A stretch of 64,000 nucleotides of DNA from assembly GCA_020073605.1 (NCBI GenBank), contig JAIQEW010000001.1, positions 248,001 through 312,000 on the forward strand. Direction: 5' to 3'. Under the pieces are notes generated by a model. It saw nothing but the letters and a program-made list of their open reading frames with translations, searched no databases and was not told the origin of the DNA. Position numbers and translations under genes: made by a program. Below, piece by piece: positions 7,288 through 19,814 of this stretch. Each line of letters starts with the position of its first letter. The stretch's first letter is position 1. This DNA is from Terriglobia bacterium. Its GTDB lineage: Bacteria > Acidobacteriota > Terriglobia > Acidiferrales > UBA7541.

Positions 7288-8240
7288 TAGAAATACCCCT
7301 CGCGCTTTTTGATTTCCATCGAGCCTTCCTCGTCATGATCGATCACGCGGTTTTCGCGCTCGGAGCGGCGGAACGAAATCATCTCATCGATGATTTTGGG
7401 AACGGTGTCGGCGTCGGAGCGAATTCCGCCCGTGCAGGGGACGCATCCCAGGGATCGCATCCGGCACTTGACCATCTGCGGCTTCTCGCTGGGAAGAGGG
7501 CGCACACCCGTCTGTAGCAGCAAAATCTGCTCTCCCCGGACGATCGCTTCACGCTCTTTCGCAAAATAGAGCGGAACGATGGGGATATTTTCCGAATGGA
7601 TGTAGAGCCAGACATCGAGCTCGGTCCAATTCGAAAGCGGAAAGACGCGTATGCTTTCGCCCTTGTGATGGCGGCTGTTGTAGAGGCTCCAGAGCTCGGG
7701 CCGCTGATTCTTCGGGTCCCACTGGCCGAGCGAATCGCGGAAGGAGTAGACGCGCTCCTTGGCGCGCGATTTTTCCTCATCGCGGCGCGCCCCTCCGAAC
7801 GCGGCGTCGAAACCGCCCTCGGCGAGCGCATCCAGAAGCGACCGCGTCTTGAGCAGGCCGCAGCACTTCTGCGTGCCGAGCGTGTAGGGATTGGCGCCAT
7901 CGTCGAGGGCTTTCTGATTCTTGTGCACGATCAATTCCGCGCCCACGTGCTTCGCGTACCAGTCGCGAAATTCGATCATTTCAGGGAACTTGTAGCTGGT
8001 ATCGACGTGCAGTAGAGGAAACGGGATTTTCCCCGGATAGAAAGCCTTCTGCGCCAGGCGCAGCATCACGGAGGAATCCTTGCCGATCGAATACAGCATG
8101 ACCGGGTGGGCGAATTCGGCCGCAGCTTCGCGCAGGATGAAAATGCTCTCGGCTTCGAGCATCTTCAGGTGGTCGAGCTGGCTCGACGTCACCCTGTCAT
8201 CGGTCTTCGTGTAAAGCTCCATTTTCAACTCGATCCCCAT
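7287..8240 (-). CDS. cysD: Sulfate adenylyltransferase small subunit CysD
   Basis: Catalytic subunit of ATP sulfurylase (PP-loop pyrophosphatase fold), 317 aa. Motifs: [69 protein letters not shown]. First structural gene of the operon. The start is ambiguous: ATG 8238-8240 lies only 3 nt after the U-tract of an upstream terminator, and its nearest Shine-Dalgarno, GGAGG at 8256-8260, sits in the terminator's 3' arm. The next in-frame ATG (8220-8222) would give 311 aa and still keep the conserved [16 protein letters not shown]. Expression is predicted to be controlled by the leader at 8244-8443. Confidence 0.93.
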
Positions 8241-8243
8241 CGC

Positions 8244-8280
8244 AAAAAAAAACCGCCTCCCGGATCAGCTCCGAGGGCGG
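8244..8280 (-). terminator. Intrinsic terminator / attenuator in front of cysD
   Basis: On the minus strand a GC-rich hairpin (5' arm CCGCCCTCGG, 3' arm CCGGGAGGCGG) is followed by nine consecutive T residues at 8252-8244. This is a textbook Rho-independent terminator. It stands directly before cysD, between the operon promoter and the first gene, so it can only act as a conditional attenuator. The 5' arm segment at 8271-8278 can instead pair over 8 bp (two G-U) with TCGGGGGC at 8330-8337 inside the leader ORF, giving a candidate antiterminator. Confidence 0.85.
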
Positions 8281-8310
8281 GTTGGATTCAAGCCTAGCTG
8301 TGTTGCGAAC

Positions 8311-8400
8311 TTAGCTCGTAAATCCCTGTGCCCCCGAAGACGCACACATCTGCGTCGGGCTACAACACGTACAACACGCGCTCGGGAGCAGTAAAGTCAT
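8311..8400 (-). CDS. Cysteine-rich leader peptide of the cysDNH operon
   Basis: A 29-codon ORF between the operon promoter and the attenuator, starting MTLLLPSACCTCCSP and ending in GAQGFTS. Five of 29 codons are Cys, all TGT, four of them packed as C-C-T-C-C (codons 9, 10, 12, 13) with a fifth at 19. Stop codon TAA at 8311-8313, about 30 nt before the terminator. The ATG lies only about 6-8 nt from the predicted transcription start, so translation may be near-leaderless. Clustered codons for the pathway product followed by a terminator is the classic layout of ribosome-mediated attenuation. Function inferred, not shown. Confidence 0.75.
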   Translation of the reverse strand: MTLLLPSACCTCCSPTQMCASSGAQGFTS

Positions 8401-16522: not shown

Positions 16523-18286
16523 TTACCCCAATCCGCAGGTTCCGTCACTACATGTCGCACCAACGGGCATTCGGAGGGGCCGAGCGTCGCGGCGAATTCC
16601 GCCCTTCGGCCTCCATTTGTCCACCGATACGCTCTGGGTATACAGAAAATCCGTGGTGAGCCAGAGCGGGTTCGTTTCGCCGCCCACGATCACGATGTTG
16701 ATCTGGTTCGGATCGTGATAGGGAGCGATGAGCTTGTCCTTCGGCAGTTTGGACCAGGACGCATAGGGTTCAATCCCCTGCCGCGCAAGCGGCGCGACGA
16801 GAGAATAAATGATGTCGGCACCCCAGTATTGTCCGGCGGGTACCTCGACATGCTCTGAAAGCCATCGGCTGAGCTCTTGCTTTGTTTTGAAACCCTGGTC
16901 CTTGAGGCCCTTGGCTACCAGCGGGTCCATCACCAGAGTGGCGGCCGAGCGCAGCCCGGCAAACGCCTTCAGCATGATGACCGTTTCCTCGCTGGCCGGC
17001 CGCACCGAATTCGCGGCGCCCATGCTGTTGATGACGCTCCATCCGCGGAAGAAGCTGACGACGCTTTCATCGGCACGGAAGCCCTTTTGCACGTGGAAAG
17101 GCTCCCAGACGCTTTTCTCCTCGTTCTCCGCGCAGCACATGTTGTTGTAATTGAGGTTGTGGCCGAGGGAGCCCATAAAAGTCTCGCCCAGCCGGGAATC
17201 CGCCAAATTGACGGTCATCAACGTCCAGGCTCGCCCGATCACGGAATTCGCCAGATTGAACGGGCTCAAAGCGCCGACGCCCGAGTTCATGGCAATCTCG
17301 TCGCGAATCGGCCCATTCACGACGACCATCCTGGCAAAGGAAGTCGTGGAGCTTGGAAAGGCGGGCTCCTGAGCAGAGGCGATGGCGAGTATCACGGGGA
17401 AATGTTCGGGCCTGGCTCCCGCCATCACTGCATTGACCGCGACCTTCTCGACCGTGTACTCGATCTTCTCCTGCGTGGTCGTGATGGTCATGCGGCCGAC
17501 GACTTCGTCGGGATCGTGGCTGGTTCCCGTGAGCATTTCGGCCACGCGTTCGTTGGTGGGCAGGATGATCGGAAGACCGTCGGTCCAGCCGCTTTCCAGA
17601 AAGAGCCGCCGCAGATTCTCTTCCGTGTTCGGCTCCAGCAGCCTGACCGGGACAGGCCTTCCGGCCCGCTCCGGTTTCATTTCGCGTTCGGTAAGAGGCT
17701 TTGTGAGTGCTTCGATCAACTCCGGCACCAAGGGCTTTCCCGATATGGGGTCGTTGCCTTCGATGTATCGCTGCAAGACGGCCCGGGACATCCCAACGAC
17801 CGGATAGGGAGTGAAGCTGAAGCGCAAATTCATTCCATGATTGCGCGAATCGCGCTCGATGTAGTCAGCGAATCGGGCGGTCGTGATGGGAGCGGTGGGG
17901 ATTCCGTAGGCGTGTTCGAGTTTCCTGCAGTGCTCGGCGACACTCGCCGAACAGCCGTCTCAACCGCCGACACCGAAGATGACCGCGTGCCCTTTGTCCT
18001 TCACTTGGGCCCACAGTTCGGGATCGTCCAGGAACATGTTGCCCTTTTTCCGGTGGAGCAGCGTTTTAACGGCAGGCATGTTGCGGGAAAACCACGCGCG
18101 CAACTCTTCAAGAAACTCGTACCCTCCCGCAAATCCCACGTCCACGAGGTAAACGGTCTTGCCTTCGAGAGTGTCGAGGCGCGGAGCCATGGATAACGGC
18201 TCGAACACGCCGGTGGGCCGGCCCTGAGGGTTCAACACCGTGAACAACGGACTGGTAAGCGTGCTCTGTGCGATAGCCTGCGCCAT
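16523..18286 (-). CDS. UGSC-family selenoprotein, fused to a large uncharacterised C-terminal domain (in-frame TGA = Sec109)
   Basis: 587 aa read through TGA at 17962-17960. Start: ATG 18286, preceded by GGGAGG. Residues 1-108 and 110-160 form one UGSC-like domain interrupted by the TGA: IFGVGG-Sec-DGCSASVAEHC, then LEHAYGIPTAPITTARFADY and LRFSFTPYPVVG. The family is named for a motif with Sec or Cys at this exact site. Residues about 200-587 form a second domain (GWTDGLPIILPTNERVAEML, VAVNAVMAGARPEHFPVILA, CCAENEEKSVWEP) that I recall only as an uncharacterised family; it ends CSDGTCGLG before TAA. Frame and homology continue across the TGA without any shift. Activity unknown; redox chemistry is plausible. 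Confidence 0.82.
17931..17962 (-). promoter_or_regulatory. Bacterial SECIS-type hairpin following the Sec TGA
   Basis: Directly after the TGA (17962-17960) and six bases, the minus strand forms a 10-bp stem (TGTTCGGCGA pairing with TCGCCGAGCA, one G-U) around a GTG loop at 17943-17941. The apical loop begins 16 nt after the TGA, at the short end of the spacing used by bacterial SECIS elements. The stem lies inside the coding sequence, as bacterial SECIS must. SelB recognition is inferred. Confidence 0.6.
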
Positions 18287-18490
18287 TTTAGTCCTCCCAA
18301 GCCGCGCAAGCGGCGAAAAATCGAGCATACGTCACGGCAGCATACGTGGATAGTACCTCAATTCCGCGAGCGGGGGTACGCAGCGCGCGCTCGAGCGGAT
18401 CGCGCAATCCGTCCTGATTGACAATAGCCCCGCGTCAGCCTACAAGGGAGCTCTGTTGTGCACCGAAAATTACTGAGGGAGGACTACGCA

Positions 18491-18859
18491 ATGAAACTTC
18501 GAATGGGTGCCGCTCTTGCGATCTTCGTGCTGGCCATTTGCCTACCCGCTCTGGCTGCGGACATCAGCGGTCAGTGGACGGCAACGTTCAACACTCAGGT
18601 GGGCGAGCAGCACTATGTCTACACGTTCAAGGTTGACGGGGAGAAGCTTACGGGCACGGCGAAATCCGACGATAGTACGACCGAGATACAAAACGGGGTC
18701 GTGAAGGGCGATGACGTTTCGTTCGTCGAGAATCGGGACTACCAGGGCCAGAAGCTCGTGTTTACATACGTGGGAAAAGTCTCTGGCGATGAAATCAAGT
18801 TTACTCGCGAACTGACGGGATTTGACAAAGAGGTCCTGGTCGCAAAGCGTGTCAAGTAA
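18491..18859 (+). CDS. Small secreted protein of unknown function
   Basis: 122 aa from the ATG at 18491, which has a GGGAGGA box 8 nt upstream. A clear signal peptide (KLRMGAALAIFVLAICLPAL, cleavage after ALA) is followed by about 100 residues predicted all-beta: ISGQWTATFNTQVGEQHYVY, FKVDGEKLTGTAKSDD, VVKGDDVSFVENRDYQGQ. The repeating strand-turn pattern recalls small lipocalin-like barrels. Similar secreted proteins are frequent in Acidobacteriota, but I know of no assigned function. Confidence 0.75.
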   Translation: MKLRMGAALAIFVLAICLPALAADISGQWTATFNTQVGEQHYVYTFKVDGEKLTGTAKSDDSTTEIQNGVVKGDDVSFVENRDYQGQKLVFTYVGKVSGDEIKFTRELTGFDKEVLVAKRVK

Positions 18860-18884: not shown

Positions 18885-19814
18885 CTATCGCTTGTGCGCG
18901 TGCGCGGCCTTGCCTTCCGGTTCGTGCGTGGCGGCGTCAACGCCGTGCCGGACGAGAGCCACAAAGGCCGCCGCCGAGCGCGGTAGCGTGCGGTCGCGCC
19001 GGTAAACGATGCCCAGTTCCCGCCAGACCTCCATGTCGGAGACCGGGATCAGCTTCACCTGCCCCGCGTGCACTTCGTCCTGCGCGAAACCCTCGCTGAT
19101 CAGCGAAACGCCGAGCCCGGCGGCGACGAACCGCTTGATCATTCCGACGCTCGCCAGCTCCATCGTGATCCTCAGCCGCGAACGGAAGGGGCGAAACTGC
19201 TTGTCGAGCACCTGGCGCGTGAAGCCGGTCTTGGGAAAAATCAGCGGCTGATCGGCGATGTCGCTCGTCTTCACGCTTTTGTACGAGGCGAGAGGGTTAT
19301 TCGGGCTGACCATCAGCATCAGCCGGTCCCGGAAAATGGAGTGGACCTTCAGGCTCGGCGACTTCACCGGCAGTGTGACGATGCCCACGTCCACCGTGCC
19401 GTCCTCGACCTTCTCCAGCACCTTGTGGCTGAAGTTGCGGTAGATGCTGATTTGAACGCCGGGAAAGCGCCGGTTGTACTCCGCGAAAATGTCGGGCAGG
19501 ACGTAGAGGCAAGTCGCCTCGTTCGCCCCGATGGCAAGCGTCCCGTGCGGCGTGTTCGATTGGTCGGCAACCGCCCGCAAGGATTCGTTGCGGAGCGTCA
19601 GCAGCTTGTTCGCGTATTCGAGGAGCGTCTCGCCGGCAACCGTCAGGCGAACCGATTTCCCCACGCGGTCGAAAAGCTTCTGCCCGTACTCCTGCTCGAG
19701 CTGGCGAATCTGCGCGCTCACCGCGGGTTGCGAACGGTAAAGCTTTTGCCCGGCGCGCGAGAAGCTCCCCTGCTTGGCGATCTCGAGAAATGTTATGAGG
19801 TGGTCGAAGTCCAT
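18885..19814 (-). CDS. LysR-family transcriptional regulator
   Basis: 309 aa. Residues 1-60 are the LysR winged HTH (FDHLITFLEIAKQGSFSRAG, SQPAVSAQIRQLEQEYGQKL). Residues about 90-295 form the periplasmic-binding-like effector domain (GTLAIGANEATCLYVLPDIF, VGIVTLPVKSPSL, AAGLGVSLISEGFAQDEV). The overall style is of the CysB/CbbR branch, but the effector and targets cannot be read from the sequence. Not in an obvious operon; the zwf gene ends 88 nt upstream on the same strand. Confidence 0.9.
   Translation of the reverse strand: MDFDHLITFLEIAKQGSFSRAGQKLYRSQPAVSAQIRQLEQEYGQKLFDRVGKSVRLTVAGETLLEYANKLLTLRNESLRAVADQSNTPHGTLAIGANEATCLYVLPDIFAEYNRRFPGVQISIYRNFSHKVLEKVEDGTVDVGIVTLPVKSPSLKVHSIFRDRLMLMVSPNNPLASYKSVKTSDIADQPLIFPKTGFTRQVLDKQFRPFRSRLRITMELASVGMIKRFVAAGLGVSLISEGFAQDEVHAGQVKLIPVSDMEVWRELGIVYRRDRTLPRSAAAFVALVRHGVDAATHEPEGKAAHAHKR

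Follow-up and report, generated by a model that had tools for sequence, protein, structure and literature searches.

UGSC proteins (PF24696; NF041046; the "UGSC-containing protein" of marine selenoproteome surveys) are among the most abundant selenoprotein families of environmental surveys, and the open-access text available on them gives no function. The available portion of a 2008 report (PMC2398784) describes the UGSC domain fused to an uncharacterized conserved domain, UGSC/Unknown_1 (Figure S1A), and proposes a Trx-like fold for UGSC, and UGSC also appears, without a stated function, in the available text of a review (PMC13188914). The other described proteins that come close are GrdB, GrdF and GrdH, the selenoprotein B subunits of glycine, sarcosine and betaine reductase (PF07355), together with PrdB. 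Here we analyzed a UGSC gene in a 64,000-nucleotide stretch of DNA from a Terriglobia bacterium (the window). Our best overall explanation, at a rough probability of 0.55, is that it encodes a selenocysteine (Sec) reductase of the GrdB type that is recycled by its own cysteine tail or by other thiols.

Results

The initial annotation had joined two same-phase frames, split by one TGA, into one continuous protein. The analysis bears this out, as they form a frame of 587 codons and the Pfam match to PF24696 runs across the TGA (residues 17-169 of the read-through product, E 1.8e-17, 64.4 bits, above the gathering cut-off of 25). The features of the locus are as follows.

16523-18286, minus strand: UGSC-family selenoprotein coding sequence, 587 residues plus TAA stop, a single frame with one internal TGA
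18284-18286, minus strand: ATG start codon, with GGAGG upstream
17780-18238, minus strand: UGSC domain PF24696, residues 17-169, Pfam match, flavodoxin-like alpha/beta model
17960-17962, minus strand: internal UGA, read as Sec109, with TGA or TGC/TGT at the same site in homologues
17951-17953, minus strand: Cys112, partner of Sec109 in U-D-G-C (UxxC)
17928-17957, minus strand: bacterial SECIS-like hairpin, 10-bp stem, GUG loop 16 nt past the UGA
16613-17629, minus strand: large C-terminal domain, about residues 220-558, without a Pfam family
16526-16612, minus strand: C-terminal extension RPKGGIRRDARPLRMPVGATCSDGTCGLG, kept across the tail clade
16535-16552, minus strand: C-S-D-G-T-C tail motif, Cys579 and Cys584
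16523-16525, minus strand: TAA stop codon, the 587-codon frame itself being 16526-18286
18885-19814, minus strand: LysR-type regulator, upstream of the UGSC gene on the same strand

The protein scores 53.2 bits against NF041046, below the equivalog cut-off of 125 bits, and is therefore not filed as an NF041046 equivalog; automatic naming of the gene would probably fail for this reason, as the initial annotation had feared.

A scan of GTDB contigs gave 80 loci, found in Acidobacteriota, Pseudomonadota, Chloroflexota, Bacillota, Actinomycetota, Spirochaetota, Myxococcota, Planctomycetota, one haloarchaeon and others. The fused large domain, which had been put forward as a distinctive trait of the window gene, is present, but it is not special to this gene: nearly every homologue that was retrieved combines UGSC with a large domain, and a fusion of this kind appears in the available part of the 2008 report (PMC2398784). 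Judging from the description there, the large domain of the window protein is probably of the Unknown_1 kind. In two loci a UGSC gene is instead followed by a separate large-domain gene, after a gap of 28 nt (L102) or 19 nt (L107, Halobellus), an arrangement that points to a functional complex. The large domain matched no Pfam family and, by sequence, no PDB entry. A whole-chain Foldseek search returned nothing below E 0.001, and the structure matches from VIA-align cover essentially residues 37-204, which does not make the fold of the large domain new. Many of its polar residues (D235, T243, N323, R351 and E386 in the numbering of the 66-homologue alignment) are invariant or nearly so, and this conservation suggests a substrate site. 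A few homologues (L047, L049, L085) have Leu, Met, Trp or another residue in place of Sec or Cys; some adjoin a second copy, and they are possibly inactive or repurposed.

The AlphaFold2 model built on the 66-sequence alignment reached a pLDDT of 93.0 and a pTM of 0.92, and replaced a poorer model from nine sequences (pLDDT 74.5). The Sec domain is modeled as an alternating alpha/beta domain resembling flavodoxin and B12-binding domains. Its top structural match is 8s7v_H, a chain of the MCR activation complex (Z 10.3, rmsd 4.8 Å over 141 residues), followed by the B12-domain-like AerR, 7te2 (Z 10.2, rmsd 2.4 Å over 113); with moderate Z values of about 10, these matches indicate no more than a shared arrangement. 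The model lends no support to the Trx-like fold proposed for UGSC in the available part of the 2008 survey (PMC2398784), in a comparison that leaves room for folds not listed. Profile alignment with hhalign placed the Sec half against GrdF/GrdH-type sequences, a set that includes GrdF of Peptoclostridium acidaminophilum and GrdH of Enterococcus gilvus, with a probability of 92.6 and a score of 53.1 (150 column shuffles reached at most 23.2). The alignment spans 72 columns and sets UxxC on UxxC, followed in register by E-x-x-GIP and P-HP. Against short GrdB-like proteins of Acidobacteriota, found with PF07355, the score was 45.3 (shuffle maximum 24.3) and stayed at 41.7 with UxxC masked on both sides. 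From these profiles the Sec domain very probably shares ancestry with GrdB. None of the 66 homologues matched PF07355 directly, and no GrdE-type gene (PF09338) was matched in the window's own genome. A GrdE-like pyruvoyl subunit was considered for the C-terminal domain and rejected, as no profile match to GrdE or GrdG was obtained; the reaction may therefore differ from glycine reduction. The short GrdB-like proteins of Acidobacteriota (L117-L131) are themselves diverse at the GrdB Sec site: an in-frame TGA occupies it in several, and in others it is Cys or another residue.

Ten of the retrieved loci have a pyridine-nucleotide-disulphide reductase gene in the neighborhood; it usually adjoins the UGSC gene, mostly within about 100 nt and on the same strand. 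All eight copies of this flavoprotein that were inspected contain CASC and dinucleotide-binding motifs, and we consider it thioredoxin-reductase-like. Ahead of grdA, the annotated Enterococcus gilvus grd operon contains trxB and a gene for a thioredoxin. A thioredoxin-reductase-like neighbor would also fit with the most serious competing explanation, namely a general thiol or peroxide oxidoreductase with Sec, thioredoxin- or peroxiredoxin-like, in which the large domain serves for targeting or oligomerization only. Such enzymes typically carry UxxC, and the Trx-like fold guessed in the available part of the 2008 survey (PMC2398784) would agree with them, but the flavodoxin-like model, the alignment of the Sec half with GrdB and the conserved polar residues of the large domain make this explanation rather unlikely. 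A thiol-recycled reductase is, in our judgment, a reasonably likely assignment. Counting against it, no reductase gene lies beside the window copy, which is surrounded by LysR, zwf and tyrA genes.

These surroundings are partly conserved in the genus, judging from Pfam matches beside the orthologues (L165-L167), and a LysR gene also adjoins the orthologue in L165 and L167; it is possible that this neighbor regulates the UGSC gene. Between the UGSC and LysR genes of the window, a small open reading frame (18458-18859) begins with a secretion-type N-terminus and matches no Pfam family. Short-chain dehydrogenase genes occur near three members of the tail clade described below (L041, L044, L079). 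In L044 one of them lies 18 nt ahead of the tail-bearing UGSC gene, and a small gene (7711-8334), flavodoxin/FMN-reductase-like and containing a CxxC cluster, follows 43 nt after it.

The C-terminal CSDGTC tail, already remarked on in the initial annotation, is present and kept in orthologues. In a maximum-likelihood tree of 66 sequences, the window copy falls within a clade of 13 (SH-aLRT 99) whose Sec motif is GV[GA]G-U-[DP]-G-C. A C-x4-C ending, mostly C-x-D-G-x-C, is found in ten of the 13, from Acidobacteriota, Chloroflexota, Bacillota, Myxococcota and Spirochaetota, and in none of the tree sequences outside this clade; the tail cysteines are absent from the other three members, which counts against a role for the tail. 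Within the genus, all nine orthologues keep both cysteines and most of the linker. Conservation across clade and genus indicates that the tail is a selected feature and not the accident of a lost stop codon. The chance that it acts as an electron shuttle is, in our estimate, a little short of even. It could also bind a metal or a partner without shuttling electrons, as two close cysteines at a flexible terminus (pLDDT about 56-60) can do either and the linker RPKGGIRRDARPLRMP is conserved too; with just two cysteines, no conserved His and a tail that accompanies the GV[GA]G-U-[DP]-G-C form of the Sec motif, we regard such binding as improbable.

Sec is almost certainly inserted at UGA 17960-17962, a prediction that draws on comparative sequence evidence throughout. 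The initial annotation had made its selenoprotein call hinge on sel genes not being absent altogether, and the genome (3.66 Mb, 93.6% complete) encodes all four: selA (E 9e-169), selB (E 2e-110, above its cut-off), selD (E 1e-110) and selC (67.5 bits as tRNA-Sec, and called tRNA-SeC with anticodon tca by ARAGORN). It had also placed the TGA at the family's Sec/Cys site and called for homologues with Cys there. Across the 80 related loci the Sec column holds TGA in 74 cases, TGC or TGT in 17 and TAA or TAG in none; other codons in eight cells reflect degenerate copies or misalignment, and some Cys cells are misaligned as well (L101, L112), which would weaken, not help, the hairpin contrast between TGA and Cys sites. 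All nine orthologues in the genus keep the TGA. The dN/dS ratio is 0.07-0.14 downstream of it and 0.07-0.24 upstream; dS is saturated and the figures are rough, so that purifying selection beyond the TGA is indicated in approximate terms.

Bacterial SECIS elements are constrained, according to the available text of PMC13188914, to a loop of 3-9 nt with G in its first two positions, a stem of 4-16 bp, a distance of 16-37 nt from the UGA and a minimum free energy (MFE) of at most -7.5. The window hairpin, with its 10-bp stem, GUG loop, 16-nt distance and -18.6 kcal/mol, lies within all four limits. SECIS-type hairpins are commoner in UGA homologues than in Cys homologues. The codon-shuffle z is lower at TGA sites than at Cys sites (-1.02 versus +0.08, P 5.6e-4; 83 TGA, 17 Cys) and hairpins with G in the first two loop positions are stronger there (P 6.8e-6), both P values being optimistic because the sequences are related. 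By eye, two forms of the hairpin exist within the genus, CGGCGA-GUG-UCGCCG and CUCGGC-GGUC-GCCGAG; the encoded residues shift from SAS to SSA between them, and a hairpin with a G-start loop is still possible. Column-wise covariation of the hairpin was not seen among the 13 clade members.

Were the TGA a true stop, the locus would be a pseudogene or yield two separate products, of the kind that the stand-alone UGSC and large-domain genes of L102 and L107 exemplify. This is highly improbable in view of the exchange of TGA and Cys at 91 sites with TAA and TAG at none, of the purifying selection on both sides and of Cys homologues that form one unbroken chain. A pseudogene or sequencing error is ruled out by the ten paralogues, the nine orthologues and dN/dS. 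The joint loss of selA and UGSC within the genus was uninformative, since selA also occurs in genomes without UGSC. That the UGA encodes a residue other than Sec, or is simply suppressed, is the least credible reading, given the complete sel set, the SECIS-like hairpins and the use of TGA as a normal stop in the same genome, where the paralogue on contig C22 terminates with it.

The window gene belongs to a family of ten in its own genome. PF24696 detects nine of the copies and a protein search the tenth (C20:77428); all ten have a single internal TGA at the same site and the large C-terminal domain. Cys112 is invariant in the nine own-genome copies that were aligned and is kept in at least 90% of the 66 homologues. 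By inspection, eight of the ten copies have a twin-arginine-type leader, such as MKINRRKLLSLLG, and another (C22) a hydrophobic one; the window copy is the only one without either, and also the only one with the C-x4-C tail. Quinoprotein (PQQ) dehydrogenase genes adjoin three paralogue loci, with cytochrome c near one of them. One of these loci (L030 3803-9545; G000:C21:470-475 kb) contains three tandem UGSC selenoprotein genes flanked by the PQQ-type dehydrogenase, and in the two others (L031 6753-9193 and L032 3980-5710) the paralogues beside the dehydrogenase have export leaders. In L031 a cytochrome c gene adjoins the dehydrogenase gene, which suggests a periplasmic oxidation module. A rhodanese-domain gene (L162 3620-4177) lies 39 nt past the tenth copy. 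In a first sample of the genus, UGSC matches numbered 9-18 in eight genomes besides the window's own, almost always with TGA, and zero or one in other genomes; a second sample gave up to 21 matches to the full-length protein per genome, some of them fragments.

Discussion

As a GrdB-type reductase, the protein could work as follows. SelB and tRNA-Sec would decode UGA 17960-17962, aided by the downstream hairpin, to give one chain of 587 residues, in which Sec109 and Cys112 are predicted to form a UxxC redox center on the modeled flavodoxin-like domain. The large C-terminal domain would bind a small substrate, the Sec109 selenolate would attack it and reduce or cleave a bond, and Cys112 would resolve the product into a Sec109-Cys112 selenenylsulfide that thiols re-reduce. 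In the tail clade, C-x4-C would carry electrons from a donor of the thioredoxin/thioredoxin-reductase type, and where relatives have no tail, the center would be re-reduced directly by the CASC-type flavoprotein encoded next to them.

The outline given in the initial annotation, a Sec-containing UGSC protein encoded by a single gene, with Sec/Cys interchange and a redox-type tail, stands, and its emphasis on the fusion was overstated; kinship to GrdB, the ten-copy family, the clade-wide tail and the reductase neighbors elsewhere were absent from it. The UGSC family and its large-domain fusion were already known, as the available part of PMC2398784 makes clear. What is added here is that the fused form is the usual one, that a clade with a C-x4-C tail spans several phyla, that the Sec domain is akin to GrdB/GrdF and modeled as flavodoxin-like, and that flavoprotein genes lie nearby. 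A search of open-access papers found no account of the tail-bearing clade, the kinship to GrdB, the flavoprotein partner or the expansion of paralogues. One could tentatively see here a new class of GrdB-related reductases that is not limited to amino-acid-fermenting anaerobes. It would unite the Sec site and the substrate domain on one chain, joined in a single multi-phylum clade by the dithiol tail, and would number at least ten copies per genome, most of which have export leaders and several of which adjoin quinoprotein dehydrogenase genes.

An expansion to ten copies in one acidobacterial lineage implies that much selenium is required, and gene callers that end genes at UGA have likely overlooked most of this demand. 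The GrdB link, the likely reductase partner, the two-gene form and the Cys tail turn an "unknown redox protein" into testable biochemistry.

Compared with known systems, the window protein shares with the UGSC family the whole Sec domain, UxxC and the exchange of Sec and Cys, but its motif is U-D-G-C instead of U-G-S-C, and it carries the fused large domain and the Cys tail. By description, its architecture is probably the same as the UGSC/Unknown_1 fusion of PMC2398784, whose available account mentions no Cys tail such as the one present here. The resemblance to another redox enzyme lies in that tail. Thioredoxin reductase with a C-terminal redox tail is comparable in that a Cys pair on a flexible C-terminus may carry electrons; in the window protein, however, Sec sits in the core, the tail holds two Cys and the chain has no FAD or NAD(P)H domain. 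GrdB, GrdF, GrdH and PrdB differ in that the large domain of the window protein is unlike GrdE/GrdG, in a genome where no GrdE-type gene was found, but they share with UGSC the UxxC, E-x-x-GIP and HP segments, a reductase gene close by in the E. gilvus operon and, for GrdB/GrdF/GrdH, a profile match centered on Sec.
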